A stretch of 64,000 nucleotides of DNA from a virus. Below are positions 22,977 to 50,705 of the stretch, one piece after another. The position numbers and the translations under genes are program-made. The stretch covers positions 53,379 through 117,378 of the IMG/VR virus record IMGVR_UViG_3300023180_005138. One strand, 5' to 3'. Position 1 is the first letter of the stretch. The number at the start of each line of letters is the position of its first letter. Below the pieces are notes generated by a model. That model searched no databases and was not told the origin of the DNA. It saw only the letters and a list, made by a program, of their open reading frames with translations.

Positions 22977-25900
22977 TTAAACTCCTGTTACCGCGAAATC
23001 TACTTGTGGTAATATACCACTTGGTCCGCCAATATTATGTGCAGAGACTCCATTAGAGAAATATACGGAAATATTCGCTCCTCCTAACCCTCTATCTAAA
23101 ATAATTACTTGTGGTTGTGCTAACTGATTAGAACTTGCACTCACAATAGACCCAGTTACTTTTGGAATTTGTGTAAATGCCATCTGTGAATAATCAACAT
23201 ATTTTGATAAGGTATCTACTGTTACTATTTCTGTATATAATCTTTCGTCTAAAGTTATTTTATAGTTAAACTTATCCAAAATTAATTCAGCTTGAGTCGG
23301 GTCACTATTATTAACTTTATATCTAAACTGGAAATATCTAAAGGTTCTAGCACCTGTTACAAAGTTTTCAAAACCGTCTGAACCAGCTACAGAAGTAAAC
23401 GCTGATGAATCTACGTTACCATTAGCAAAATAAGGACTTGTTGTAGCGTATCTAACTTCAGTATTAGTTGTTACAATACCCGAAGTTCCATAAAAAGTCG
23501 CTCCCTCACTTAAATCTAACCACTGTTTTAAGTTTACCAATTTATAGGAGCTTCCGGCAACTTCTAAATTCGCAAATCCATTACTTCCTGTAGACATTCC
23601 GTTAGCATACCAAGAGTCTCCCAAAATAATTTCATTATCATTAGAAACTCCAGCAATTAAAGAAAATACGTTAGCGTTAGAATCATCTCCGTCATAGTTT
23701 CCAATAGCTACAATACCATATACATTGGCAGGGAAAGATCCTTGTAATCCGCTAACTAAAGTTTTATTTTCTGAATGATAAGTTACCGTAGCTGCTCCTG
23801 TGTTAGAGCTTCCTAAAATTTCTCCAATACCTAATGTTCCAGAAAAATCTACATCCTTTAATTTTCCAGAGCCAGAGGCAGCTTCTGTGACTTGATCTCC
23901 TCCTATCTGCTCGCTATAATCTAACCAAGTAGATTTAAGAGCTTGAGAGCCTACTAATTCTAATTGTATAGAAGCAGTCAAAGTATTACCTAAATCTCTA
24001 ATTTGTGTTACATATTCAGCATTTTCTAGTGCTCTTAAGTCTGTAGGAGATCCTCCAATTACACTCCAACCAGAGGAGGAACCATTAGCGTTATCTACTA
24101 CACTGGAATCAAACAAACTATCCGCTTTTGCGTAAGATAATCCTCCTGTATTAGAAGAATAGAATGATGCATAGGCGGACTCTGTGTTATTAGAGTTGTG
24201 AACCCCTACTACTAAAGGTACTCCAGGGGTATCTTCAGAAAAGATTTGGTATGTTTTACTAAAAGAAACAGGTTGAGAAGTAAAGGAAGCTGCAACTATA
24301 TCAGTACTGAATATACCAGAAGTATCTTTAGTTCTTACTAGATACGAATATTGACCATATTGATCAATATCAATTACTACTCGGTTAGTACGAGCGTCAA
24401 CGATAGCAACCTCTTGTGCTCTAGGCCATAAGTCTAAAAGAGTTGCTTGATCTGTTGCAATAGAGCCTTCAACCTTTTTAATTTGAACTTCTAATAGGTC
24501 AAGGTCATAGTTATCACCTGTTATAGGATCAATAACGTATCTCCAAATCATAACTAAAGTGTCACTTGCCTGTCCTACAGCAAAGTTTACCACATTTTTA
24601 GGAGGAGCTAATTTACCGGTGATTGAAGCCTGTTTAATTGCTACTGAGCCTCTAATATTTTTATTTAAAGGTATAACGCGTACAACAATAGCATTGGGGT
24701 TTGAACTTAAACCTCTTTCAATATTATCTATTTTTATTCTTATCTTTCCATCTTCATCTACCCCTGCTGCAGACACTTTTACAGTATTAAAAGAGGTTAA
24801 GTCTCCTGCAATATCTCCAGATATTTTATAAGAAATTTCATAATCGGTTACTTCTTGACCTGTGATATGGTCAAAAGAAACCATAATTCTAGTAGAGACT
24901 CCTAGTGTTGAGTCTTTATATAACTCTTCCGCAATAGCTAAATTAGAAACAGCCTTAATCGGAATAGGTCTTACACTAACACTTTTAGTTGTAAAAGGGC
25001 TACGTCTTCCATACTTAGTTACGTTTCTAGCCCTTACAGAATGAATACCTACTTCAGCTCTATTAATTACTCTTTTACTACCAGACTCTAAGTTTAAAGG
25101 TATAAAAGTATTAACGGGGGTATTAGTAGTATATACCCCATTATTAGCTAAATTTAAAAGACCTCTATAACGAAGATGGTTATAGTCAAAGGTAAACGTT
25201 TTTGATCCTAAATCTAAATTACCAACAGTTCCAATAGGATCTTCAGTAATATTTATAGCAAACGCTGTTGCCACATTAGATTTAATATTATCACTCAAAG
25301 TAACTCTATATATACCGTTAGCAGTAAGAGCAGCGTCATAAGACGGAGCCGCAATATCAAAGGTAGAGTCAGAAATACCATATACGTTACCCGCATTCCA
25401 GGTAATATTATCACCTCTTTCTAATATAGGAACAGTATAAACATTAGCTGTTACTCTAATATCTAAATTAGATATTGAGGTAGGTAAAGTGCTTAGATTA
25501 ATAGATACTTGAGAATTAGATAAATTATCTAATCCTTTTTCTAGTGTAAAATCAGAGTGTGTTCCTCCATTAATAAATACTTCTACAAAGCCTGTATGTC
25601 TTAGAGAAACTCCTAAAGGTTGTTTAAAAACATGATTATCAATTAAATTAGAGATAGTAGCTGTATTACTTCTAACTAAATCTAAATGTGTACCAGTTAC
25701 ATACAGAGAATTATTAGCAAAATATCTGTGATCTATAACTTGAGGAACCTTAATATAAAAAGGAGGATCAGGCAATAATCCATGAATAGTAGTAGAACCA
25801 GAATGATCATTCAATATTTTAATAGTATTAGTAGAGGCATTATAAGAAGTAACATTAGCACTGTATTGAGTCACCCTAGTATCAGACCCAATAAATCCTA

Positions 25901-28900
25901 ATAATCCCGCTGCGTCTCCTGTACCTCCCTCATCTTTAGAGTTAATTGGTAAAGTAATCTTATCATTACCTTTTAATCCTCCAAAGTCAAAAGTATCATT
26001 AACAGCAAGAACATGAGTACCAAAGTTTATGTCTTGAAGATTGTTTAATCCTGTCAAAGAAAGCTCAATATACCCATTAGCTTCTTCGTCAGCTCCAATA
26101 TCAACGATATCATAACCAGTAACAAGAATTTTTGATCTTCCGATTTCTGTAGTGAAACCGTTTTTACCCATTAGAGTAACAGACTCTCCTTCTAAGATAT
26201 CTGTAAAATCATCCATATGTACTTTTATAATATCCCTCGATGCTTGAGGGGTAGTGTTTGATACTAGCGATCTTGTATTAAAAGGAGGAGCATGGAAAAA
26301 GTCAGTTCTAGTCTCGTTAGAATAACCGGTAAAATCATTTGTAAAACTAATATCAATATCAGTATAAACAGAGCCGTCTAAATCTCTTTTTGGTACTGCT
26401 CTTAGTTCAAACATAGGAGCAGGAGGAGCTTGTAGAGGAGAGAATAAATCCGTAAAAGCTAAAGGCTTATAATTAATTAATGTATCAGAATCTACATAAA
26501 CATTAGAAATATATTCTCTAGCTTCAATGAATACTGTTTCGTCTGGCTCTCTTTTCATATTAATGATTCTAAAGAGTTTGTCAGATTGCGCAGTAAAAAT
26601 ATCAGTAGGATTAGCAATAGTTCCTATACTCCAAGTATCATACCTACTTGGTGTATGAAAAGTTCCCCACCCACCACTAAAAGCATTAAAAGTTTTAGAT
26701 GGGTGATCCCATTTACTTAAAGCCTCAACTCTGATAACTTCGGCACCACCAGTAACATTTGCAGTATTAGATAGATTAAAACTAGTGTTACTAATTATAT
26801 AAGCATCAACTAAACCAGAAGTGTGACTAGACACCCTAAGAATTAAAGGATCAGTATTAGCTGTAAAAAACGACGAAGTTATAGAAGGATTTCCTATATG
26901 TTCTAGGTATATAGCCGTATTTGATGCAGTAGAAGAGTTAGATACTATACCTCCATAACCCCACCCTACAGAAGTAGCTCTTTGAGATACCGCAATAATA
27001 GATCCTGGAGTAAGTTCAGAAGCTTCTATACCAGTTTTAAAGCCAACTTTTCTTCTAGAATATTTGGAATCAGCAATAACATATTGAGCAGCTCTAATTG
27101 CTTGACTTTTTCTAGCTACTCCATCTAAATCAATTTTTGCAATATTCTCAATACTATTACGTTCTCTAAGAGCTTTTGGATCATCAATTCTTAAAACTTC
27201 TCTTCTAAAGTGTAATGTAGGGTCTATATAAGTAACATCTACACCAGTAATTAGAGACTCCTCTGATATACCAGAAATATTCATGGTCCCTGCTATAATA
27301 TTTGTCTCATTAAATACTGCTGATGGCATATTATCAGGCTTATCCTGATACATCATAATTTTACCACCAGAATAGAATAGTATAGATCTAGAACTAAGAC
27401 TAACAATATTTATAGCATCCATGACTTGTTTTTGGTCAGATATAACACCGTCGTATATAAAACGTCTCTCTAACACTCCAAGACCTGCGTCTATCCCCAC
27501 TAAAACCTCTGTAACCTTTGTTTTAACTCCTCTAGGCTTATATCTATTAGTACCATCAGCCTCTGCTGCAACTCCTACAAATTCACCTGTAGTAACATCA
27601 CAAGCATCATTATATACTGCAGCATCATAAAAAGAGAATTTATCAACATTTTCTTCTGGAATACCTAATCCATAAGATTTATTAGTTAGCATGTCATATA
27701 TAATCCATGCAGGATTCTGAGTCCATGAGAATACAAACTGCCCGTCCCAAAGACCGTTATAAATAACAGGAGTGCCTGTTAGTAAGGTAGTTCCAGTTTT
27801 TTGTTGACTATAACCATAATTTGTTCTATCAGTGGCACTAACCTCTACCTCTCTCCAATCAATATCTCCATTCTCTAAAATAGGCTGATTATAATTAGAG
27901 GGTACTTTTACAATAAGACCTTTAACTATCTGAGTAATAGCAGGCATTCCGCCTTTATGTTCTGCGAAAGCTTTTAGTGCATATCCAACAGTAGCTGTTC
28001 TAGTATATGCAATAGGTTCTTCTATAATTTCGGTCCACCCTTGGAAAGTTACAGAGGCTTGTACTTTAGAAGACGCAGTATCAGCATTTGTTTTTTCAAC
28101 TGTGAATTTATAACCAGCGTCATCTATTTTATTAGTAGGAACTGCTAAGTATATGTCAAAAGAAAATGCAACGTTCGTCTTACCATTAATAGTTCTTGTT
28201 TGTGTAGCTAGTTCTTCTGTTCCATCTCTATTATATAATGTAACTTTTACCTCTATAGTTTCTGGAAGAACATCTCCTTTATCATTTTGTTTTTGTAAGC
28301 CTCCAATGATAAAATAAAACTTACAGGCTGTTAATGCTGTAGGAGATGTATCTTGTTTATCAACAGCAGATCGAGGAACGCCATCAGCATTACCTTTTTT
28401 AAGTTCTACTGTTCCTTGTAGTCTCTGAGGGATAAAAGTATAGTCTCCAAATAAAGGAATGCGTTGTTGAGATATTGTTCCTGTATTAGTATAATAAAAG
28501 AACTTTTCATCATCTACTACTCCCTCTACTAATAAATCTTCAATATTACCTTCATTAAATTCTATATCTTGTGGTCCATTTGGGTTGATTCTATATACAG
28601 GACCTTCTCCTAAACCAAGGGTTAGTAATAAAATATCTGTAGAGAACAGGTTATTGGGAGTTTCGGTTCCGCTACCGCCGCCTTTTCCTCCACCGCCACC
28701 ATTATGAACATAAACTCCATTAGCGATATAAGAGTGAACATGAGAAACTTTAAAGTTATAAACTTCTCCATCTCGTAGATATTCAATAGAATTAATTTTA
28801 GATAGTTGATTATCGTTTGTTAAAAGATTGTCACCAACCTTAAAATCTTTTAGCTCTTGATATGTACCATCTTCTTTTAACACCCAGTGATTAGGAGTAA

Positions 28901-29153
28901 TATCAAGAGTACCCGCTTCGTGTTCGACGCGATATATTTTATCTATAGGGTGATAAAAAGTCTCAGTAACTGTGGATAAAACAGAATGTCCTAATTCGTT
29001 AAAAGCCCATACGGAATCTCCTACTTCAATATCTGAAATAGGTTTAAATCCTGATTCTATAGAGATAAGAGTATCAGGAGCAAAACAACCTCCTCCTCCG
29101 CCTCCACCTTCTATTAAAGGAACCGCAGTATCATCAATATAAAGCACTGTCAT
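22977..29153 (-). CDS. Tail tip attachment protein, lambda gpJ-like, with N-terminal Hint domain
   Basis: A 2,058-residue central tail-tip protein, nearly twice the length of lambda gpJ (1,132). Gp J-like regions are visible around FSTDILLLTLGLGEGPVYR, WDGQFVFSWTQNPAWIIYDM, MDAINIVSLSSRSILFYSGG and IAKIDLDGVARKSQAIRAAQ, followed by fibronectin-like domains. Residues 23-151 form a Hint/intein-like domain set in glycine runs. Order after gpI and before a collar fibre matches lambda. Role: it forms the tail tip and likely guides receptor recognition and DNA entry. Confidence 0.95.
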   Translation of the reverse strand: MTVLYIDDTAVPLIEGGGGGGGCFAPDTLISIESGFKPISDIEVGDSVWAFNELGHSVLSTVTETFYHPIDKIYRVEHEAGTLDITPNHWVLKEDGTYQELKDFKVGDNLLTNDNQLSKINSIEYLRDGEVYNFKVSHVHSYIANGVYVHNGGGGGKGGGSGTETPNNLFSTDILLLTLGLGEGPVYRINPNGPQDIEFNEGNIEDLLVEGVVDDEKFFYYTNTGTISQQRIPLFGDYTFIPQRLQGTVELKKGNADGVPRSAVDKQDTSPTALTACKFYFIIGGLQKQNDKGDVLPETIEVKVTLYNRDGTEELATQTRTINGKTNVAFSFDIYLAVPTNKIDDAGYKFTVEKTNADTASSKVQASVTFQGWTEIIEEPIAYTRTATVGYALKAFAEHKGGMPAITQIVKGLIVKVPSNYNQPILENGDIDWREVEVSATDRTNYGYSQQKTGTTLLTGTPVIYNGLWDGQFVFSWTQNPAWIIYDMLTNKSYGLGIPEENVDKFSFYDAAVYNDACDVTTGEFVGVAAEADGTNRYKPRGVKTKVTEVLVGIDAGLGVLERRFIYDGVISDQKQVMDAINIVSLSSRSILFYSGGKIMMYQDKPDNMPSAVFNETNIIAGTMNISGISEESLITGVDVTYIDPTLHFRREVLRIDDPKALRERNSIENIAKIDLDGVARKSQAIRAAQYVIADSKYSRRKVGFKTGIEASELTPGSIIAVSQRATSVGWGYGGIVSNSSTASNTAIYLEHIGNPSITSSFFTANTDPLILRVSSHTSGLVDAYIISNTSFNLSNTANVTGGAEVIRVEALSKWDHPSKTFNAFSGGWGTFHTPSRYDTWSIGTIANPTDIFTAQSDKLFRIINMKREPDETVFIEAREYISNVYVDSDTLINYKPLAFTDLFSPLQAPPAPMFELRAVPKRDLDGSVYTDIDISFTNDFTGYSNETRTDFFHAPPFNTRSLVSNTTPQASRDIIKVHMDDFTDILEGESVTLMGKNGFTTEIGRSKILVTGYDIVDIGADEEANGYIELSLTGLNNLQDINFGTHVLAVNDTFDFGGLKGNDKITLPINSKDEGGTGDAAGLLGFIGSDTRVTQYSANVTSYNASTNTIKILNDHSGSTTIHGLLPDPPFYIKVPQVIDHRYFANNSLYVTGTHLDLVRSNTATISNLIDNHVFKQPLGVSLRHTGFVEVFINGGTHSDFTLEKGLDNLSNSQVSINLSTLPTSISNLDIRVTANVYTVPILERGDNITWNAGNVYGISDSTFDIAAPSYDAALTANGIYRVTLSDNIKSNVATAFAINITEDPIGTVGNLDLGSKTFTFDYNHLRYRGLLNLANNGVYTTNTPVNTFIPLNLESGSKRVINRAEVGIHSVRARNVTKYGRRSPFTTKSVSVRPIPIKAVSNLAIAEELYKDSTLGVSTRIMVSFDHITGQEVTDYEISYKISGDIAGDLTSFNTVKVSAAGVDEDGKIRIKIDNIERGLSSNPNAIVVRVIPLNKNIRGSVAIKQASITGKLAPPKNVVNFAVGQASDTLVMIWRYVIDPITGDNYDLDLLEVQIKKVEGSIATDQATLLDLWPRAQEVAIVDARTNRVVIDIDQYGQYSYLVRTKDTSGIFSTDIVAASFTSQPVSFSKTYQIFSEDTPGVPLVVGVHNSNNTESAYASFYSSNTGGLSYAKADSLFDSSVVDNANGSSSGWSVIGGSPTDLRALENAEYVTQIRDLGNTLTASIQLELVGSQALKSTWLDYSEQIGGDQVTEAASGSGKLKDVDFSGTLGIGEILGSSNTGAATVTYHSENKTLVSGLQGSFPANVYGIVAIGNYDGDDSNANVFSLIAGVSNDNEIILGDSWYANGMSTGSNGFANLEVAGSSYKLVNLKQWLDLSEGATFYGTSGIVTTNTEVRYATTSPYFANGNVDSSAFTSVAGSDGFENFVTGARTFRYFQFRYKVNNSDPTQAELILDKFNYKITLDERLYTEIVTVDTLSKYVDYSQMAFTQIPKVTGSIVSASSNQLAQPQVIILDRGLGGANISVYFSNGVSAHNIGGPSGILPQVDFAVTGV
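28701..29087 (-). other. Hint (intein-like) domain inside the gpJ homologue
   Basis: Residues 23-151 of the tip protein. The N-terminal splice-type block starts with C23 (CFAPDTLISI), block B is TPNH at residues 86-89, and the C-terminal block runs from about VYNFKV (131) to VHN ending at N151. At about 129 residues it matches minimal inteins with no homing endonuclease. It is flanked by seven glycines before C23 and five after N151. The +1 residue is Gly rather than Cys, Ser or Thr, as in some bacterial intein-like (BIL) domains, so cleavage rather than efficient splicing is expected. Confidence 0.9.
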
Positions 29154-29170
29154 TCTGTATAATCTACCTT

Positions 29171-29887
29171 TTAATTTGTCCTAGTAATTTCATCTGACCT
29201 AGTATAAAATATGTCACTCACAGCGATTGTATCGTTTTCTCCGTGTTTTATAGTTTCTACGTGCCCACTTAACATTTGTCCTGCAACTCTAGGAGCACCA
29301 TAAATCAGAGGAACATTAGCATTAGTATCTGTAGTATTCTCTAAAGCATCAAACATATCATTATTTCTTCTTTGTTGGTTATTATTACTATTATTAACAG
29401 GCTCTGGAGGTTTCATCATCATTTGCATTAGTCCAGCCAAAACCAGACCAATACCCATTTTAAGCAGCCCTCCTGCTGTCAGACCAGCGATACCGACCTT
29501 AGCACTAGCATCAAATGCTGCAAGCCCACCAGCGGCGAAGGCACCTCCAGTAAAAAGGGCGAGACCTATTAAAACTACTCCCAAAAGTACCATTAAAAGA
29601 CCACTTTTTCCTCCTGACCCTTCTAAAATAGGGACTAAGGTAAGTTCTTCATGTTTTAATCTATTAAATTCATAGTCTTTTTTCTTTAATAGTTCTCCTT
29701 CTGGAGTTATTAAACTAATATTTTCTTTTAAACATCCTGTAGAGATAGTTTTTATATACCTTCTCATTTTAGGAAATAAAGCCACTAATGCATGACGTAT
29801 ATCAGAAATACTGTTTACGTCTACTTGGTGAGACTTAACTCCTGTCATTTCTTGAAATGCGGGATGAAAGTTTAAAGTAACTAGCAT
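29171..29887 (-). CDS. Tail assembly protein, lambda gpI-like
   Basis: A 238-residue protein with the lambda tail-assembly I layout: an N-terminal ubiquitin-like region (VTLNFHPAFQEMTG through EELTLVPILEGSGGKSG), a hydrophobic glycine/alanine segment (LLMVLLGVVLIGLALFTGG), and an Asn-rich linker before a C-terminal GAPRVAGQMLSGHVETIKHG. It precedes gpJ and overlaps the JAMM gene by seven bases, as in lambda K-I-J order. Confidence 0.88.
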   Translation of the reverse strand: MLVTLNFHPAFQEMTGVKSHQVDVNSISDIRHALVALFPKMRRYIKTISTGCLKENISLITPEGELLKKKDYEFNRLKHEELTLVPILEGSGGKSGLLMVLLGVVLIGLALFTGGAFAAGGLAAFDASAKVGIAGLTAGGLLKMGIGLVLAGLMQMMMKPPEPVNNSNNNQQRRNNDMFDALENTTDTNANVPLIYGAPRVAGQMLSGHVETIKHGENDTIAVSDIFYTRSDEITRTN

Positions 29888-30252
29888 TGTAAATCTGATT
29901 CCTCTAATGGTTTAAATCTTAGATAATTTAAGTCATCTAACCAGTATAAATAATATTCCTCTTTTGGACTACCAACTATAAATTTATATTGTTTAAATAT
30001 AGCAGAGTTCTTATCATGATCACTAGGTAGTACGTCATGATAAGCAGTATGGCTATGAAAAATACCCCAGCAATCCTCTCCATACTTGAATAAGGCTCTG
30101 GGGTCTAAGACAAAACTTTCTGATGGCACAGGACTAAGATTATCACAAGGAATATATTCAAAGTTTTTTGTAATAATTCCACAACATTCTACTTCAGTAT
30201 TTTCATTAATATGTTTTTTAAATCCTGCTACTAAGTCTTTGTACCTATCCAT
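29881..30252 (-). CDS. JAMM (Mov34/MPN) metalloprotease-like protein, lambda gpK N-terminal-domain-like
   Basis: A 123-residue protein with a complete JAMM site: Glu22 in EVECCG, His66 and His68 in FHSHTA, and Ser77/Asp80 in PSDHD. In lambda gpK this domain is fused to an NlpC/P60 domain; here it is a separate gene following two NlpC/P60 genes. It likely acts in tail-tip assembly or peptidoglycan/peptide processing. It overlaps gpI by seven bases. Confidence 0.88.
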   Translation of the reverse strand: MDRYKDLVAGFKKHINENTEVECCGIITKNFEYIPCDNLSPVPSESFVLDPRALFKYGEDCWGIFHSHTAYHDVLPSDHDKNSAIFKQYKFIVGSPKEEYYLYWLDDLNYLRFKPLEESDLQC

Positions 30253-30662
30253 TTATATATCCCCATCGTATATTGTTTATAATAGTTACCATATGTAGCT
30301 ATATGTGATTTGTGATTTTGTAATATATGCAGTATCTTATTATTCCCTATATATAAACCACAATGATTAGTAATTGTAGAAGCACCAATAGTCATAGTTA
30401 TAACATCAAATTCTTTAGGACTATTAACTAACTGCCATCCATAATCTTTAGAAGATGCTTTTTTAATATTATCTTCATGAATTTGCTGATACCAGTAATC
30501 GTCTACTATATTACACCAGTCTCTAGTAGTATAGGGTATTTCTATTTCAAGTTCTTGTTTATAAATATACTTAACTAAATTAAAACAATCTATTCCAGTA
30601 TTAGGGTCTAATCCTAAATGTTTAAAAGGAAGCCCTACGTATTTATCCCATTCCACCGCCAT
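30231..30662 (-). CDS. NlpC/P60 cysteine peptidase-like tail protein, copy B
   Basis: About 143 residues from ATG 30662 (a TTG start at 30686 is also possible; neither has a clear ribosome site). The NlpC/P60 active site appears intact: Cys in GIDCFNLVKYIY, His in NHCGLYIG and a third His in ILHILQ. It corresponds to the C-terminal domain of lambda gpK, which cuts peptidoglycan stem peptides. It overlaps both neighbours and is paralogous in layout to the gene at 30635. Confidence 0.82.
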   Translation of the reverse strand: MAVEWDKYVGLPFKHLGLDPNTGIDCFNLVKYIYKQELEIEIPYTTRDWCNIVDDYWYQQIHEDNIKKASSKDYGWQLVNSPKEFDVITMTIGASTITNHCGLYIGNNKILHILQNHKSHIATYGNYYKQYTMGIYKWIGTKT

Positions 30663-31066
30663 ATACTTGCTATTTGATCTCTCCAATCTTGATTTAATAC
30701 CTCAATTAAAGAACTTTTTCCTTCCGGTAAGTGAATAAATCTATTAGCCTCTATATATAAACCAAAATGAGTTGGTATTAAACGACCTGATTTAAATATT
30801 ATTACATCATATTCTTGCAACTCTGTCAAGTAAACTTTTTTAGCAACAGTAGTTGCCCAATCTTCAAGTGTCTGAACGGATAAGCGCTTCATCCAACCTC
30901 TTCCATCTTTTGGCTTACCCCCTGGAAGACCTAAAGGTTCCCACAAACTTTCAAAAACATTAGAATTAAGCTCATTTTTATAGATGGAATCTATAAGAGT
31001 AATACAATTATTTTCTAAGTAATTATGTTGAATTCCTAAGTATTTAAGATATTTTGATTCCATCAT
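30635..31066 (-). CDS. NlpC/P60-like tail protein, copy A
   Basis: A 143-residue protein with the same layout as the adjacent copy B: Cys in ENNCITLIDSIY, His in PTHFGLYIEAN and His in RFIHLPEG, so the triad may be intact. Its N-terminal part MMESKYLKYLGIQHNY differs from copy B. It overlaps the radical SAM gene upstream by 23 bases. Two separate NlpC/P60 genes plus a JAMM gene replace the single lambda gpK. Confidence 0.75.
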   Translation of the reverse strand: MMESKYLKYLGIQHNYLENNCITLIDSIYKNELNSNVFESLWEPLGLPGGKPKDGRGWMKRLSVQTLEDWATTVAKKVYLTELQEYDVIIFKSGRLIPTHFGLYIEANRFIHLPEGKSSLIEVLNQDWRDQIASIWRWNGINT

Positions 31067-32219
31067 ACCAATCTGCTAACTGAGGGACTATAGCTGTAAA
31101 ATTTTCGTTTCTATTTCTGTCTAAAATTCCAGTATTTTTCTTAAAGATACACTCTAATTTTTCTCTGTCTTTTATCTCACCATTCATATATCTTAACCAG
31201 TCTGACATATGTTTAATATCAGATATATGTAAATCTTTTTTGTGAGTCTCTATAAAATTTTTATAATACCTCATTATTTTTTGCTTTTCTTCAGTAGGTA
31301 AAACTTGCAAAGAAATAGAAGGGGGAGTAACTAGCGTTGTACCAAAGATAGGTATATTTTTCTTTTTACCCCATAAAAGTAAATCAGGCATAGAATAAAT
31401 AGTTAATATAGATACGACTGAACTAATAGAGGTAACATAGGGTTTAACCATATCTATATTAGACTCAAAGTCTTCCCAAACTAACTCTTTTCTAACATAT
31501 TCTGTAACTTCTTTATAACCATCACAACTCGTCCAGAGGTTGACTTTCTTAAACTGTTTCCATAAAGATACTAGATCATATTCTTTAAATTTTAAAATAG
31601 ATAGGTTAGTGTTATACTGAACATTTATATCAGTTTTACCCTTAGAAATTAAGTACTCCAGTATTTTATAATGTTGCTCTAATACTAAAGGCTCTCCTCC
31701 TGCAAAATATAAAACTTCTAAATTAGGATATATTAACTCTAATCCTTCCCAAAACAAATCATTATCCCACTGCTCTTCTTTTTTACCTTGAATTGAAAAT
31801 AAGTTTTTACCTTCTTTTATCCAAGCAGTACTAGAAGCAGGACCGCAAGTTCTGCACCTAAAATTACAAGTATTTCCTAGTCTAAAATCTATATAAGGAG
31901 GGGGAGGAGGGGTAAGGGTTTTTTGTAGGTACTCTTTGTGACTCCAAAAATTATTAGCGTTATTCTTTGGATTTTCAATAACACCTAATTCATCTTTTTT
32001 AAAACAAGGATTATAACACTGTTCTGGTATTTTCCCTTCTAAAAAAGATTTTCTTAATTCTATGTACGGAGTTCCGTGCCACACATCCATAATAGGTTGT
32101 GTATTATCTCCTAAAGAATCTTTATTTGAAAAAGAATCTGAAAAGCAACAGGCTTTATACTCCCCTCTCATATTACCATGCATATGAATCCACGGTAATA
32201 TACATCCTTTTATTGCCAT
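31044..32219 (-). CDS. Radical SAM protein with N-terminal SPASM/twitch-like cysteines, enzyme 1
   Basis: A 391-residue protein. It starts with a cysteine region (IKGCILPWIHMHGN, YKACCFSD) of SPASM/twitch type, then EQCYNPCFKKDE, then the radical SAM core CNFRCRTC (Cx3Cx2C) in FRLGNTCNFRCRTCGPASS and GGEP in LYFAGGEPLVLEQHY. Proteins with this architecture occur in other marine phages without known function. It is inserted between gpL and NlpC/P60 with overlapping ends, so it is co-expressed with tail-tip genes and may modify one of them. Confidence 0.88.
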   Translation of the reverse strand: MAIKGCILPWIHMHGNMRGEYKACCFSDSFSNKDSLGDNTQPIMDVWHGTPYIELRKSFLEGKIPEQCYNPCFKKDELGVIENPKNNANNFWSHKEYLQKTLTPPPPPYIDFRLGNTCNFRCRTCGPASSTAWIKEGKNLFSIQGKKEEQWDNDLFWEGLELIYPNLEVLYFAGGEPLVLEQHYKILEYLISKGKTDINVQYNTNLSILKFKEYDLVSLWKQFKKVNLWTSCDGYKEVTEYVRKELVWEDFESNIDMVKPYVTSISSVVSILTIYSMPDLLLWGKKKNIPIFGTTLVTPPSISLQVLPTEEKQKIMRYYKNFIETHKKDLHISDIKHMSDWLRYMNGEIKDREKLECIFKKNTGILDRNRNENFTAIVPQLADWYDGIKIS

Positions 32220-44789: not shown

Positions 44790-46088
44790 CTAATAAATCA
44801 CTCTATATAAATCTAGAATACGACGAATGTGTGGAGGAAAATTAGCACTCAATGCTCTATCTTGAACATTCTCACCTTGGAAAGTAAAGCCTTGGGATTC
44901 TTGCCGATCTTTGTGTAACATTTTAGCATAATCCATAGTAGCCATCAATAAATCTTGAGGAATAGAGCCAGAATCATATCCAGACTTATAAGTTACTCTA
45001 ACACCACGAGGATAATTCTTAAATGTAGCAGCTCCTACAAGAGTTAATCCAAAATCTCCTGTACCATCACCAATATTTTTAGTAATTTCGCCTGTATCAG
45101 GGTAGAATAAAAAGTCTTCTACAGAAGCGTGATCGTCAGCAAAGCCAGAGGTATCATTGTCTCCATCAAAATGTGCTAATAAAACAGTATTATCATCTGT
45201 CGCATGTTGGTAAGAAGGAGCAGTAAAAGCAGTAGTATGTCTAGCAACATGAGAGATACGAGTTTCATCCATAAATCCATTAAAATATTGATAATTTGAA
45301 GTAACATTTTGTCTTGCAATTTCAAGTTGCGCAGAAATATCAGGCATCACATTTGAAGTAGTTTGTGTGCCTATAGAAGTTCCATCACGGTAAAGTGTCC
45401 AAGAAGAACCAGAACGAACAATTTCTACATGATGAAAAGTATTAGCAGAATAACCAGTTGAGGCCGCATGTGTAACATTAACAACTTCAGTACCTCCAGA
45501 TACTGCTCTAAAAGTAAAACCATTAGTAGTATCATATCCAAGGGACCAAAGATTATTAACATCCGCAGATTGTGAGATGAATACTGCATTAGCAGAATAA
45601 GAGTTAGATCTTATTTGTGTATCAATAGTAAAATCAGAGTCTCCAAAATACCAGTCATTAGAATCAGCTAAATAAATATAGTCATCAGATCCGTCAAAAA
45701 ACACAGAGGAGTCCCCGAACTTTTTATATCTAGTTTTTAGAACGGGTCCTCCACTGCGAGTTAAAGTATGGTTTGAATCTATTCTTGTTACTGAAGAACC
45801 ATCTGATTGTGGATTAGTTAGTTTTCTATATGCAGTACCGTCATACTCAGAAATAGAATGAACATTTTGTAAGGGTAGCCTAGATACAAAAACCGAAGAT
45901 TTTCCTCCGTCAAATACTTCTGAATACGAGTTACTTAAAACTTCGTGTCCAATATAGTTTTCTACAGCACCACAAGCGAAAGAAATAAGATTGCTGAGTC
46001 TAGCATCTTCGTTAGAGCTTGTAATGTTTAGATAATTTTTTATTTGTGCTAAAGTTACATATGGATATTTACCATAATTGCTAGACAT
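44790..46088 (-). CDS. Head-tail connector with LamG-like inserted domain
   Basis: A 432-residue protein. The ends match small gp6/gp15-type connectors: residues 1-90 (VTLAQIKNYLNITSSNEDAR, SNLISFACGAVENYIGHEV) and 352-432 (PQDLLMATMDYAKMLHKDRQE). Residues 120-312 form a concanavalin/LamG-like sandwich (SVFFDGSDDYIYLADS, DFTIDTQIR, HHVEIVRSGSSWTLYRDGT, DETRISHVARHTT), placed between them. Connectors usually run 100-120 residues. The insertion may decorate the neck. Confidence 0.82.
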   Translation of the reverse strand: MSSNYGKYPYVTLAQIKNYLNITSSNEDARLSNLISFACGAVENYIGHEVLSNSYSEVFDGGKSSVFVSRLPLQNVHSISEYDGTAYRKLTNPQSDGSSVTRIDSNHTLTRSGGPVLKTRYKKFGDSSVFFDGSDDYIYLADSNDWYFGDSDFTIDTQIRSNSYSANAVFISQSADVNNLWSLGYDTTNGFTFRAVSGGTEVVNVTHAASTGYSANTFHHVEIVRSGSSWTLYRDGTSIGTQTTSNVMPDISAQLEIARQNVTSNYQYFNGFMDETRISHVARHTTAFTAPSYQHATDDNTVLLAHFDGDNDTSGFADDHASVEDFLFYPDTGEITKNIGDGTGDFGLTLVGAATFKNYPRGVRVTYKSGYDSGSIPQDLLMATMDYAKMLHKDRQESQGFTFQGENVQDRALSANFPPHIRRILDLYRVIY

Positions 46089-46417: not shown

Positions 46418-47812
46418 TTAGGCAAGTGTTCTGATTGTAGCAGCATAGCCGTAGGTGGTTGAAACGTTTGCACCTGCACCTGAGCCTGTGGTTGAGAGAG
46501 CCTTGAAGTCAAAGCGTGTGCTCATGTACATCGCTGTGACCTGCTGGCGAGGCTCGTACTCGCTCTCGATCTCCATACCACGGCGTTCTGCGATCATCCA
46601 GCCTGGCTTGTAGACTAGAGCACCAATGTCGGCTGAGTTAGAACCAACGTTATCTAGGAACTCAGTAATAACAACTGGGATACCATAGATTGCGCCAACA
46701 GAACCTGTGAGGTATGTTGCGTTTGGTCCGAACTTATCGACTGTGCGGAAGTCGGAGGTTGTGACTAGCTCGTTGTAACCTTCGATTGTGGTTAGATATA
46801 CGAGGTGGTCACCAAGCTGTAGACCGTACTTACCCATTAGGGCGCGGGCTGAAGCAATATTAGCTGCTGTAGCCTTTGTGTCGCCATCGGCGGTACGAAC
46901 GGATAGACCGTCTGTAGCAACCTGGTTAACCATTGTGGTGATACCCTTAACAACAGAGGCATAAGTTGATGTGCCAGCTGGGTTAGCTGTGAAGCCTGAT
47001 AGGGCGCCAGTACCACGAAGGATTGCCTTGTCGATTGAACGAGAAAGGCGACGTGTTGCTGCGCGACGGAGGAAGTCGATTAGAGGAAGAATTGTATCCT
47101 CTTCTTCATCCTTGGCAAGATGTGTTGTAACCATGAACTTGTGTGGTGTAAAGTCAACTGACTTAATTGCGTTCTGGTTTGAGGTTGGGACGTTTGATGT
47201 ATCACCAACGCCTGTGGCATATGTGCCAGAAGCGAACTGTGCTACGTAATCGTCTGTATCCTCATCGGCGACTGGGACACGGAATGTCTTTGCATCGACC
47301 TGGATTCTATCGAACATAGGAGCAATAACGAGCTGCTGCTCCATTTCTTCATAGATATTTGTTGAGAAGTTGCTTAGGAACTGATCAACTGAAGTGACGG
47401 CCTTAATCTGATTACCAAGCTTGGTATCAAATGGGTCACGACGATTGAGAGCCTTAGCAAGAAGGAAGGCATTAGCCATTTCCTTTTCGCTATACTTGCT
47501 GGAAGCCTTCTGCTGCTGATAAACATGCTTGCTTTCAGAAATAGCTTTAATCTCGTCCTTATATTTTGCAATCTGTGCCTTTAGCTCAGAAAGCTCTTCA
47601 CGGGTCTGGCGAGTTGCCTCACCATTACGCTCAGCCTCATCGGACTCACGTATAACAGCTTCACCAGCCTTCTCGACTAGCTTCTCTGTGTTGTTTTCTC
47701 CAACTTTAACGGAGACTTCCTCGACAGCCTTCTCCACAACTGTTTCAGTTGCAGGAGCTGCTTTCTTTTCAGTCTCTAGTACAATTGGATCACCTGCATT
47801 TTCGGTTGCCAT
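46418..47812 (-). CDS. Major capsid protein, internal in-frame start
   Basis: The ATG at 47812 (MATENAGDPIV) lies in frame within the fusion and has AAAGGAGA eight bases upstream (47821-47828), an excellent ribosome site. The product of 464 residues would hold a charged helical delta-like region (REELSELKAQIAKYKDEIKA) plus the HK97 fold, the normal size and architecture for a capsid protein. This would let the phage make capsid protein in excess over protease. Seen: start and ribosome site; inferred: use. Confidence 0.65.
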   Translation of the reverse strand: MATENAGDPIVLETEKKAAPATETVVEKAVEEVSVKVGENNTEKLVEKAGEAVIRESDEAERNGEATRQTREELSELKAQIAKYKDEIKAISESKHVYQQQKASSKYSEKEMANAFLLAKALNRRDPFDTKLGNQIKAVTSVDQFLSNFSTNIYEEMEQQLVIAPMFDRIQVDAKTFRVPVADEDTDDYVAQFASGTYATGVGDTSNVPTSNQNAIKSVDFTPHKFMVTTHLAKDEEEDTILPLIDFLRRAATRRLSRSIDKAILRGTGALSGFTANPAGTSTYASVVKGITTMVNQVATDGLSVRTADGDTKATAANIASARALMGKYGLQLGDHLVYLTTIEGYNELVTTSDFRTVDKFGPNATYLTGSVGAIYGIPVVITEFLDNVGSNSADIGALVYKPGWMIAERRGMEIESEYEPRQQVTAMYMSTRFDFKALSTTGSGAGANVSTTYGYAATIRTLA

Positions 47813-49441
47813 TGTTTCATTCTCCTTTATAGTCTTAGTAGTCTTATGACCGTTTACTAATAAGGCTAGATCCTTTGAAGTCTCTTCGCCATCGTTGCAG
47901 TCAATACTCTTAAGCTTTTCGATGTTATTTAGCATCATTTTAGCAATATGATAGTTAGTGTCATTCCATTCTGATGATGGGGTAGTGGTTAAGTTTAGTG
48001 TTTTATTCAGCTTTTCCTGTAAAAGTTCACTGTTTTTAACAGCTTCGTTATCTTTCACTGCATAAAGCTCTTGTTCAGAAAGTGTAACCAGTGAGTCAAA
48101 CTTTTCTTTAATATTGGAACGTTCTCCATCACTTAAGCTTTTGAACTCTGTAACAGAGACATCTAGATCATACTGTGATCCAAGGTCCCAAAAATTCGCT
48201 ACTGATAAATTTTCAGCAGGGATTGTAACTGTATTATCCAATGATTTTCCGTTTAAGTCAACTTCTAAAAATTGAAAAATAGGGTTTTGGGCAGTAGCAA
48301 TTTTCACTGTCTGATACCTTTTACCCTCATGTTTTACAAAAGCACCATTTTTAATTTGTGCGGTTTCTGCACTAAGAAGATTAACAAAAGGAATTGGTTC
48401 ATAAGGATCAGATGATAAGGTCTTATCCTCATCGTCTTCATCTTCCTCGGATAGATTCTCAATTTCTACGTCTTCAGCAAGATTGACTTCCTTAATAATT
48501 TCCTTCTCTTCTTCTTCAGCGGCAGCAACAATGACTTCTTCTGTCTCGTTTGTTTCAACGTCTTTAGTCATAGTATTCTCCTCTTCAGAATATAGAGTAA
48601 CAGATGAGTAGTTAGGGTTTTTAGACCCACCGTTTGCCTCAGTCTCACTAGGAGACATGGGACGGGCTTCTCCATCTGTCTTATCAGGTGAATCAACATT
48701 GTTAGAAGGTTGAACTAAGAACACAATTTCATGACCGTGCCCTTCTGCTTCTTCAATGGTATAATTCACAATTTTGTGATAATGCTTTTGGCCATGAGAG
48801 GAATAGGTAGTAACACCATTGCCACTATCATCCATTTCAATGGTATGATAATGACCGGCTTTGTTACCAGTTATTCCGACATAAATGCCTTCCATCATTT
48901 TCACTTCGTCTTTTAAGCTAGCCTCTTTGAGACTCTTCTTAAAGTCTTCATATTCATCGTTAGATTCAAAACTTTTTCTAACACTGAATAAGCTTTCTTG
49001 GTTGCAAGGAACGGATACAACACTAATTTCGTGAAGTTCTACATCAGTAATTTGTGTTGTGTCTGTATTCCGATCATAGCGACCATCCTTAACGCGGAAC
49101 CCTACAGAAAAGCTCTTTAAAGCTCCGTCATTAATAAGTGTTTGTACACCGTGAAGTTTTTCTGCTGCGTCACTTACATAAGCTTCAACAAAAATACCTT
49201 TACGGTCTACAGAAATCTTTTCTACACGTCCAATAGGTTTGCTGTGATCGTGCTGATAAAGAAGAACAGGGTTCTTACGATAGTAATCAACACCCTTAGC
49301 CCAAGCATTAGCTGTAATGATATCACCTGCTCGATCTTTATCGGTGGTGTTAGCATAGCCAGCAATTCTTAAGCCTTTCTTCTTCTTAGGAGCACGTTTC
49401 TCAACAGTTAGTGGACTGTATACATGAAACATTTTATCCAT
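46418..49441 (-). CDS. Prohead protease-scaffold-major capsid fusion
   Basis: A single frame of about 1,007 residues from ATG 49441 (nine bases after AAGGGG; ATG 49447 and an earlier 49504 are possible). The N-terminal part is an HK97-type S78 prohead protease (YQHDHSKPIGRVEKI, LKSFSVGFRV, ELHEISVVSVPCN). Then comes a His-rich segment (HYHTIEM, KHYHKIV, GHGHEI), an acidic linker, a helical scaffold-like part, and an HK97 capsid protein (MFDRIQVDAKTFRVPV, ATRRLSRSIDKAIL, IYGIPVVITEFL). Internal ribosome sites precede Met at 48571 and 47812, suggesting nested products. Confidence 0.9.
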   Translation of the reverse strand: MDKMFHVYSPLTVEKRAPKKKKGLRIAGYANTTDKDRAGDIITANAWAKGVDYYRKNPVLLYQHDHSKPIGRVEKISVDRKGIFVEAYVSDAAEKLHGVQTLINDGALKSFSVGFRVKDGRYDRNTDTTQITDVELHEISVVSVPCNQESLFSVRKSFESNDEYEDFKKSLKEASLKDEVKMMEGIYVGITGNKAGHYHTIEMDDSGNGVTTYSSHGQKHYHKIVNYTIEEAEGHGHEIVFLVQPSNNVDSPDKTDGEARPMSPSETEANGGSKNPNYSSVTLYSEEENTMTKDVETNETEEVIVAAAEEEEKEIIKEVNLAEDVEIENLSEEDEDDEDKTLSSDPYEPIPFVNLLSAETAQIKNGAFVKHEGKRYQTVKIATAQNPIFQFLEVDLNGKSLDNTVTIPAENLSVANFWDLGSQYDLDVSVTEFKSLSDGERSNIKEKFDSLVTLSEQELYAVKDNEAVKNSELLQEKLNKTLNLTTTPSSEWNDTNYHIAKMMLNNIEKLKSIDCNDGEETSKDLALLVNGHKTTKTIKENETMATENAGDPIVLETEKKAAPATETVVEKAVEEVSVKVGENNTEKLVEKAGEAVIRESDEAERNGEATRQTREELSELKAQIAKYKDEIKAISESKHVYQQQKASSKYSEKEMANAFLLAKALNRRDPFDTKLGNQIKAVTSVDQFLSNFSTNIYEEMEQQLVIAPMFDRIQVDAKTFRVPVADEDTDDYVAQFASGTYATGVGDTSNVPTSNQNAIKSVDFTPHKFMVTTHLAKDEEEDTILPLIDFLRRAATRRLSRSIDKAILRGTGALSGFTANPAGTSTYASVVKGITTMVNQVATDGLSVRTADGDTKATAANIASARALMGKYGLQLGDHLVYLTTIEGYNELVTTSDFRTVDKFGPNATYLTGSVGAIYGIPVVITEFLDNVGSNSADIGALVYKPGWMIAERRGMEIESEYEPRQQVTAMYMSTRFDFKALSTTGSGAGANVSTTYGYAATIRTLA

Positions 49442-50705
49442 TCTCATTATCCCCTTGTGTAGGATCAGGAGGTGTATCTGTATTATCTTCTGTAGGTCTT
49501 CCACCTTGTGAGGGGTCTACAGCACTTCCTGTAATATTTTGTGGTATTCTAATCTCATCGCAATCTTCACGATGTTGGAATCTTAATCCTATTCTAGCTT
49601 CATTAGGTGTAATAATACCAGTATTTACTAATGTAGAATAGTACATAGCTTGTGTTTTTTCGTCCGCTCTAAGAGCTGAAACAGCTGCTCTATCTGGACG
49701 AATAATAATATCTGAGTTAAAGAAGTGAGAAAATGCGCTACAGAACTGTTCTAAAATTGGCATAATAGTATGGTTATAAAATAATACTTGGTTTGCAGCT
49801 ATGTTAGCATTATTTCCTGATTTTAACAGAACATATGGTACACCAAGTGCTTTTGCAATATCTTGTTGGACTCGTTCTACAGAAGCTTCAAAATCTAACT
49901 CGGAAAATTTAATTTGTCCAAAAGGACTTAGCTGTAGTCCGCCATCTAAAATAGCAGGATTTCTAGCACCACCATAAATAGTAGAATAACTCTGTCTCCA
50001 CTGTTCTAATAATCTTTCTTTTACTTTTGGACTTAGAACAGAAGCAGTTTGTAAGACAATACCTGGAATACCATTATTCTTAAAGAATTGACGCTGGAAA
50101 TTAATTAAGTAATAGTATAACTCAATTAATCTTTTAACAGATTTTAACTTTGGTGCGCCACGGTAAATACTATCTTCGTTATCTGACTTAATATGAATAA
50201 TTTCATCAGTATCAAATTTTAGAGCAGATTCTTGTCTTGTGGTTTGTTTACCATAACTATAAGCACTTGAAGACTGAACATTTCGCACTAAAAAGTTAAA
50301 ATGCGAAATAAAGGTTTTTTCGTCTGGAATAACTTCCATATCATTAGCTGGTAATACGTAAAGATTTGTACGATCATAATAAAAGAAGGCATTACCATCT
50401 AGTAAATAGTCTAAGAAAGCTCTACGAAATAACTTAACTCTGTCTTCAAAAGGATTTGGTGAACGATTTAAAAGTTTATCTACTTTCTTAACAGCACCTC
50501 CGCCTTCAACAATAATCGGGACTTCAATCAAAGCATTAATAATTAACTCAATAGAGCGATTAACTACTTCAACGTCACGATATGCTTGTTCAAAATCAAG
50601 AATAGTTTCTGGACTCGCATAAGGCTCTGCGGCAGCTAACGAAGGCTGTGCAGGGTTAAGCTTTTCTGATATCCATCTTCTCCAACCTGGAACTTCGTTA
50701 GCCAT
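49434..50705 (-). CDS. Portal protein (HK97 family)
   Basis: A 423-residue protein of the HK97 portal type: FEQAYRDVEVVNRSIELIIN, YLLDGNAFFYYDRTN, EIIHIKSDNEDSIYRGAPKL, then QQDIAKALGVPYVLLKSGNN and a C-terminal DKTQ-like stretch (ADEKTQAMYYSTLVNTGIIT). It forms the ring through which DNA enters and leaves the head. Its stop lies just inside the start region of the protease-capsid gene. Confidence 0.95.
   Translation of the reverse strand: MANEVPGWRRWISEKLNPAQPSLAAAEPYASPETILDFEQAYRDVEVVNRSIELIINALIEVPIIVEGGGAVKKVDKLLNRSPNPFEDRVKLFRRAFLDYLLDGNAFFYYDRTNLYVLPANDMEVIPDEKTFISHFNFLVRNVQSSSAYSYGKQTTRQESALKFDTDEIIHIKSDNEDSIYRGAPKLKSVKRLIELYYYLINFQRQFFKNNGIPGIVLQTASVLSPKVKERLLEQWRQSYSTIYGGARNPAILDGGLQLSPFGQIKFSELDFEASVERVQQDIAKALGVPYVLLKSGNNANIAANQVLFYNHTIMPILEQFCSAFSHFFNSDIIIRPDRAAVSALRADEKTQAMYYSTLVNTGIITPNEARIGLRFQHREDCDEIRIPQNITGSAVDPSQGGRPTEDNTDTPPDPTQGDNENG

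Follow-up and report, generated by a model that had tools for sequence, protein, structure and literature searches.

An endonuclease-free, BIL type A-like Hint domain in the glycine linker of phage tail-tip protein gpJ that probably excises itself

Results

Tail-tip genes of the window

The window, which is the whole 64,000-nucleotide stretch analysed here, comprises the final 64 kb of a virus record 117,378 bases long (IMG/VR IMGVR_UViG_3300023180_005138), and all features described below lie on its minus strand. A gpJ homologue (tail tip or central fibre) of 2058 aa is encoded at 22977-29153, with a Shine-Dalgarno-like sequence, AAAGGTAG, located 5' of the ATG. The protein was matched by phrog_31 (E 4e-91) and by the lambda_TipJ profile (E 4e-31) and carries FNIII-A_GpJ and Phage-tail_3 matches, in agreement with the original prediction that the host protein is a tail-tip gpJ homologue. 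Both marks of lambda gpJ, the profile match and the L-K-I-J gene order, were found in the window, with gpK being split.

The gpI homologue (TAPI) lies at 29171-29887 (phrog_32, E 6.5e-28) and has a predicted N-terminal ubiquitin/MoaD-like fold, the model of which matched MoaD and SAMP1. By motif comparison, the end of this ubiquitin-like (Ubl) domain, VPILEGSGGKSG at 29600-29635, is similar to the gpJ leader. The split gpK (29881-31066) consists of a JAB peptidase ORF (29881-30252; Prok-JAB, E 7.7e-8), a gpK-like NlpC/P60 ORF (30231-30686; E 5.9e-13) and a second NlpC/P60 ORF (30635-31066; E 2.6e-5), and the identical order was found in the related loci L024, L027 and L216. Within the tail-tip operon, a radical SAM/SPASM gene (31044-32219) separates gpL from the parts of gpK; similar ORFs occupy the same place in the Hint-bearing L024 and the Hint-free L216, while L027 has none. 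Two gpI-like genes were found in tandem upstream of gpJ in L027 (4658-5431 and 5412-5987). Further along the window, one 1028-aa ORF (46418-49504) combines a prohead protease (Peptidase_S78) with the major capsid protein, and a head-completion/connector protein (44790-46088) contains a concanavalin A-like (Laminin_G_3) domain at residues 132-283.

A complete Hint domain at the gpJ N terminus

The window gpJ begins with the leader MTVLYIDDTAVPLIEGGGGGGG (N-extein, residues 1-22, 29088-29153), followed by CFAPDTL...TPNHW...HSYIANGVYVHN and then by GGGGGKGGG. The leader carries a conserved P-x-h-x-G-rich motif common to relatives with and without the Hint domain. The Hint domain occupies residues 23-151 (28701-29087) and has no endonuclease insert. 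The C-extein starts with the glycine-rich stretch GGGGGKGGGSG (residues 152-162, 28668-28700; assigned from the sequence and the lambda TipJ alignment), so that the +1 residue is Gly. Seven Gly before the domain and five after it, as originally described, were read in the ORF translation.

Residues 23-151 are a complete Hint domain and not a chance match. The Pfam families PT-HINT (E 8.9e-8) and Hint (E 5.1e-7) were both detected above the Pfam cut-offs, and both matched 52 of 52 aligned relatives. The AlphaFold model had a pLDDT of about 86-97 across the domain, and with this model Foldseek retrieved Tetrahymena thermophila BIL2, which belongs to a BUBL locus and was the top fold match, together with the SspDnaB, NpuDnaB and gp41-1 inteins and the Clostridium thermocellum BIL (E 1e-11 to 1e-9). 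When the family profile was compared with the PDB, the nearest solved sequences were the C. thermocellum BIL (4e-21), Tetrahymena BUBL BIL2 (3e-16) and the gp41-1 intein (5e-14). The window protein falls below the curated NCBIfam cut-offs for intein splicing regions; its relative L082 passes those for the N- and C-terminal regions and L025 that for the C-terminal region. No second Hint domain was found in the genome of the window phage.

All the residues named in the original prediction were present at exactly the predicted coordinates, and Pfam, the model and Foldseek agree on the domain. Cys23, the thioester-forming Hint position 1, is encoded at 29085-29087. Block B, Thr86-Pro-Asn88-His89, lies at 28887-28898, and the C-terminal splice junction His150-Asn151 at 28701-28706. 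Among 60 aligned domains, C23, F24, His68, T86, N88, H89 and N151 (window numbering) were invariant, while position 150 was His in 54 and Ser in 6, and His140 of block F (28734-28736) was His in 55 and Gln in 5. In the alignment, His68 (28950-28952) falls opposite His48 of T. thermophila BIL2, a residue described as a Zn ligand (PMC8616854). A BIL2-type Zn site in the window Hint was rejected, since only this one of the two ligands aligns, the other, His125, not being conserved.

Marine relatives carrying the domain

Scanning IMG/VR contigs four times recovered 270 loci in which the gpJ N terminus could be read, some contigs contributing several. Relatives are described here as two gpJ groups, for which "marine" and "freshwater" are used as working labels and not as sample sources. 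The original prediction suggested a survey of marine phage J proteins for the domain; the scans yielded 64 distinct marine carriers after duplicate removal, and the second group added 62 Hints. All 64 marine domains start at a Gly/Cys-Phe junction and end in HN-K (39), HN-G (18) or SN-K (7). They are 129-135 aa long and lack a homing endonuclease. The +1 residue is Lys in 46 and Gly in 18, and in none of the 64 is it Cys, Ser or Thr. The site is a glycine linker of variable length, yet at a fixed position in a conserved protein.

Pooled pN/pS was about 0.30 in the Hint, compared with 0.34 in the gpJ core, which indicates that the marine Hint is kept under purifying selection and is as constrained as the core. 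Distances between Hints parallel those between gpJ cores (Mantel r 0.77; 0 of 2000 permutations as high), so that the marine-family Hint is, by this measure, mostly inherited together with gpJ. The 4.6-kb metagenome contig L008 has flanks about 97% identical to L007, while its Hint is about 95% identical to L011 and about 70% to L007, with breakpoints less than 10 bases from the domain ends. We read this pattern as the exchange of the L008 Hint for a distant allele, with junctions lying almost precisely where the domain starts and stops. A chimeric assembly is an unlikely cause, because the Hint is only about 95% identical to that of L011. No further swap as clear as that of L008 was found.

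Domain-free relatives and the history of gain and loss

There were 44 distinct domain-free gpJ proteins of the same family, in which the leader motif runs unbroken into the body, VPxIxGxKGG leading directly into KGGGG...EDPNSLFSTD. For example, a domain-free protein reads VPLIGGSKGG/KGGGGG, where a Hint-bearing one reads RIPYIVGAKGG[C..HN]KGGGKGG. When the Hint was removed in silico from carriers with Lys at +1 and the flanks were joined, the result was nearly the domain-free text; in the window clade, Gly stands for Lys. Judged by sequence, the continuous flank motif of the 44 domain-free proteins (VPxIxGxKGG/KGGG) is exactly the product that ligation would be expected to give.

Rooting the tree on three cultured phages placed 30 domain-free rows in a single clade inside the Hint carriers, a topology suggestive of a single gain and a single clean loss within the marine clade. 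The rooted tree thus requires two changes, where the core tree without a root required three, and long branches weaken the root. Element-free alleles with continuous flanks, a criterion of class 1 inteins, were present in both the marine and the freshwater group.

A second, freshwater group

Searching with a profile of the Hint alone recovered a second set of gpJ proteins, about 1150 aa long, whose Hint occupies the same position. All 62 freshwater Hints begin with CF and end with HN, followed by Ala. Identical 300-aa gpJ cores occur with and without the Hint, and well-supported branches force at least six changes between presence and absence. L402 has the Hint and L381 lacks it, while their sequences on either side agree at 99% over 214 bases and at 97% over 1500 bases. 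Because the domain can be present or absent in a structural protein that is otherwise identical, and because its catalytic residues are never lost, the freshwater Hint very probably removes itself. The freshwater C-extein repeats the leader motif (AGLGLGIAGAGGGG; MTRIVGSG7[Hint]AGLGLGIAGAG8K), and therefore cleavage alone would also give a normal gpJ N terminus. The outcome in this group may be either ligation or cleavage alone, as both fit.

Glycine tails of gpI and gpJ

The role of the Ubl domain and the JAB peptidase in tail assembly was raised in 2006, when the peptidase was proposed to cut gpI at the glycine ending its ubiquitin-like domain (PMC1779556). The motif P-x-h-x-G-(G/A/S) is common to the gpI Ubl tail (80 of 85) and the gpJ N terminus (105 of 108), and it did not occur in 60,848 residues of downstream gpJ sequence. 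In three loci a Hint domain directly follows the glycine tail of the gpI Ubl domain (L301:2626-3942, L307:2623-3957 and L317:2638-3957). At the 3' end of L307, a downstream tail protein begins another Hint (CFPAGTKVYTPSGLKNIEEL), within which the locus ends. We also considered the Hint as a simple swap for JAB processing and rejected it, as JAB is present in the Hint-bearing window, L024 and L027, in the Hint-free L216 and in the gpI-Hint phages (detected by profile in the window and by eye and motif in the others).

Discussion

Proposed self-excision

We consider it on balance probable that the domain is an active, endonuclease-free, type A-like BIL Hint which excises itself from the glycine linker of gpJ, with the marine clade probably ligating the leader to gpJ. 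In type A BIL chemistry, Cys1 forms a thioester, Asn cyclises and the freed amino group attacks (PMC4031507). This route fits, and it is suited by Gly at -1, by a +1 residue that is Gly or Lys, and by the flexibility of the glycine flanks. Removal would occur during or after translation, and very probably ahead of tail assembly. Cys23 would take the acyl group of Gly22 to form a thioester, aided by the T-x-N-H block, and cyclisation of Asn151 would free the amino group of the +1 residue (Gly in the window, Lys in most relatives). The freed amine could then attack the unhindered glycyl thioester, joining the leader VPLI-E-G7 to GGGGGKGGG, and the mature N terminus would be similar to that of domain-free relatives. 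With glycine on both sides, ligation would be easy even though +1 is no nucleophile, and the site could tolerate insertion and loss of the domain as well as exchange of its alleles. We infer these steps from conservation and known Hint chemistry, and likewise the activity, the ligation and a benefit to the phage. Stable inheritance in the marine clade could reflect a function of the Hint beyond self-removal.

The complete and invariant catalytic residues, with a +1 residue that is not a nucleophile, support the BIL-type autoprocessing that was originally predicted. The view that true splicing is unlikely finds no support in the form in which it was put, as type A BIL domains can splice without a +1 nucleophile, although they mostly cleave (PMC4031507). 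The proposed release of the first 22 residues by cleavage fares no better as stated, because the leader is conserved and is continuous with gpJ in the domain-free relatives.

Alternative explanations

Self-removal might also end in cleavage at one or both ends, with the leader and Hint discarded and mature gpJ starting at +1 (GGGGGKGGG or KGGGKGG) like lambda gpJ. Such cleavage is the predominant outcome for known type A BILs (PMC4031507), the lambda TipJ profile aligns just past the Hint (its position 5 at window residue 156; alignment start at residue 158 in L082), and the motif repeated in the freshwater C-extein would make the leader dispensable in the product. However, the P, I and Gly positions of the leader are conserved, marine domain-free relatives keep the leader joined to gpJ, and a discarded peptide is not expected to stay like domain-free leaders. 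We therefore favour ligation for the marine clade, where the leader is conserved and joined to gpJ in domain-free relatives, and regard an outcome limited to cleavage as rather unlikely. We think it very doubtful that an inactivated domain persists in the virion, serving as a spacer or decoration. The lack of a +1 nucleophile and the Ser in place of the penultimate His in 6 of 60 aligned domains would fit an inert element, but Cys1 and the final Asn are kept in all 64 marine and 62 freshwater Hints, and near-identical phages manage without the domain.

A BUBL-like conjugation, in keeping with the originally suggested attachment to another amine, would hand a glycyl thioester to an amine on another tail-tip protein, the group transferred being either the leader or, in certain phages, the Ubl domain of gpI. 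It draws on the top structural match, since BIL2 of a BUBL locus is reported to form isopeptide bonds to lysine (PMC8616854). The gpI Ubl domain shares the tail motif of the gpJ leader, and in L301, L307 and L317 the Hint directly follows that tail. The BIL2 Zn ligand His125 is Asn here, however, and the gpJ leader is too short for a Ubl domain, which leaves conjugation very improbable indeed. The gpI and gpJ Hints of aquatic siphophages might even serve as an ATP-free form of ubiquitin-like activation, in which the glycine tail of a Ubl domain, or of a short leader that mimics one, is kept as a thioester and passed to a tail-tip amine, joining the hub covalently or priming it while the tail assembles; we see this as a long shot.

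Significance

Few examples of nucleophile-free BIL splicing are known, and splicing is usually minor beside cleavage. The present family is an extensive natural series: its clean domain-free members reveal what product to expect, and near-identical phages with and without the Hint can be compared directly. The finding further puts self-processing domains where gpI and gpJ have their glycine tails, beside a Ubl domain and a JAB peptidase. If ligation were efficient, the domain would provide a scarless splicing tool with a junction needing only Gly or Lys.

Comparison with known systems

At the thresholds used, no Hint was found in the gpJ of cultured phages, the matches being only inteins in enzymes and unannotated proteins. 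A scan of host-genome contigs found no relative, and thus identified neither a host nor a prophage. In a literature search with most subscription journals outside its scope, no description of a Hint in gpJ was found. The deposited A0A218MKA3 ("Putative gp62" [uncultured virus], BFVD), which has no annotated function and is known here from the structural match alone, is 49% identical over the modelled leader-plus-Hint region and probably represents the same gpJ type.

By its sequence features, the window element is BIL type A-like. It shares with the C. thermocellum BIL (PDB 2lwy), its best PDB sequence match, the Hint fold, Cys1, the TxxH of block B and the C-terminal His-Asn (SN in 7 of 64 marine relatives, HN in the window), a +1 residue other than Cys, Ser or Thr, and the absence of an endonuclease. 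BILs have been described from variable regions of bacterial proteins (PMC5874633), a location that is usual for them but no part of their definition; the gpJ Hint lies in a linker that varies in length, though always at one point of a phage tail-hub protein for which exact domain-free relatives exist. The ciliate BUBL loci (Ubl-BIL polyproteins; BIL2, PDB 6y75 and 6tmm) provide the top fold match, the T-x-N-H block and the aligned His48, and their Ubl-Gly tail directly before a Hint recurs in gpI of L301, L307 and L317. BIL2 of BUBL genes was reported to transfer Ubl to lysine (PMC8616854). The window Hint differs in following a 22-residue leader instead of a Ubl domain, and in having a virus as host.

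The class 1 mini-inteins gp41-1, NpuDnaB and SspDnaB share the fold, blocks A, B, F and G, in-frame insertion and domain-free alleles, but the marine gpJ relatives never have the Cys, Ser or Thr that class 1 requires at +1. The missing homing endonuclease is not decisive, as mini-inteins lack it as well. Inteins of phage terminases, helicases and ribonucleotide reductases (phiCbK TerL, PMC3556154; Vibrio and Corynebacterium phage matches) are also Hint domains in phage proteins, but those are nucleic-acid enzymes, while gpJ is a tail-tip structural protein. In PT-HINT polymorphic toxins a toxin domain follows the Hint, whereas here it is the gpJ body. The novelty lies in the setting, namely a fixed tail-hub site for which nature supplies domain-free controls, a local turnover that involves no endonuclease, and the occurrences in gpI.
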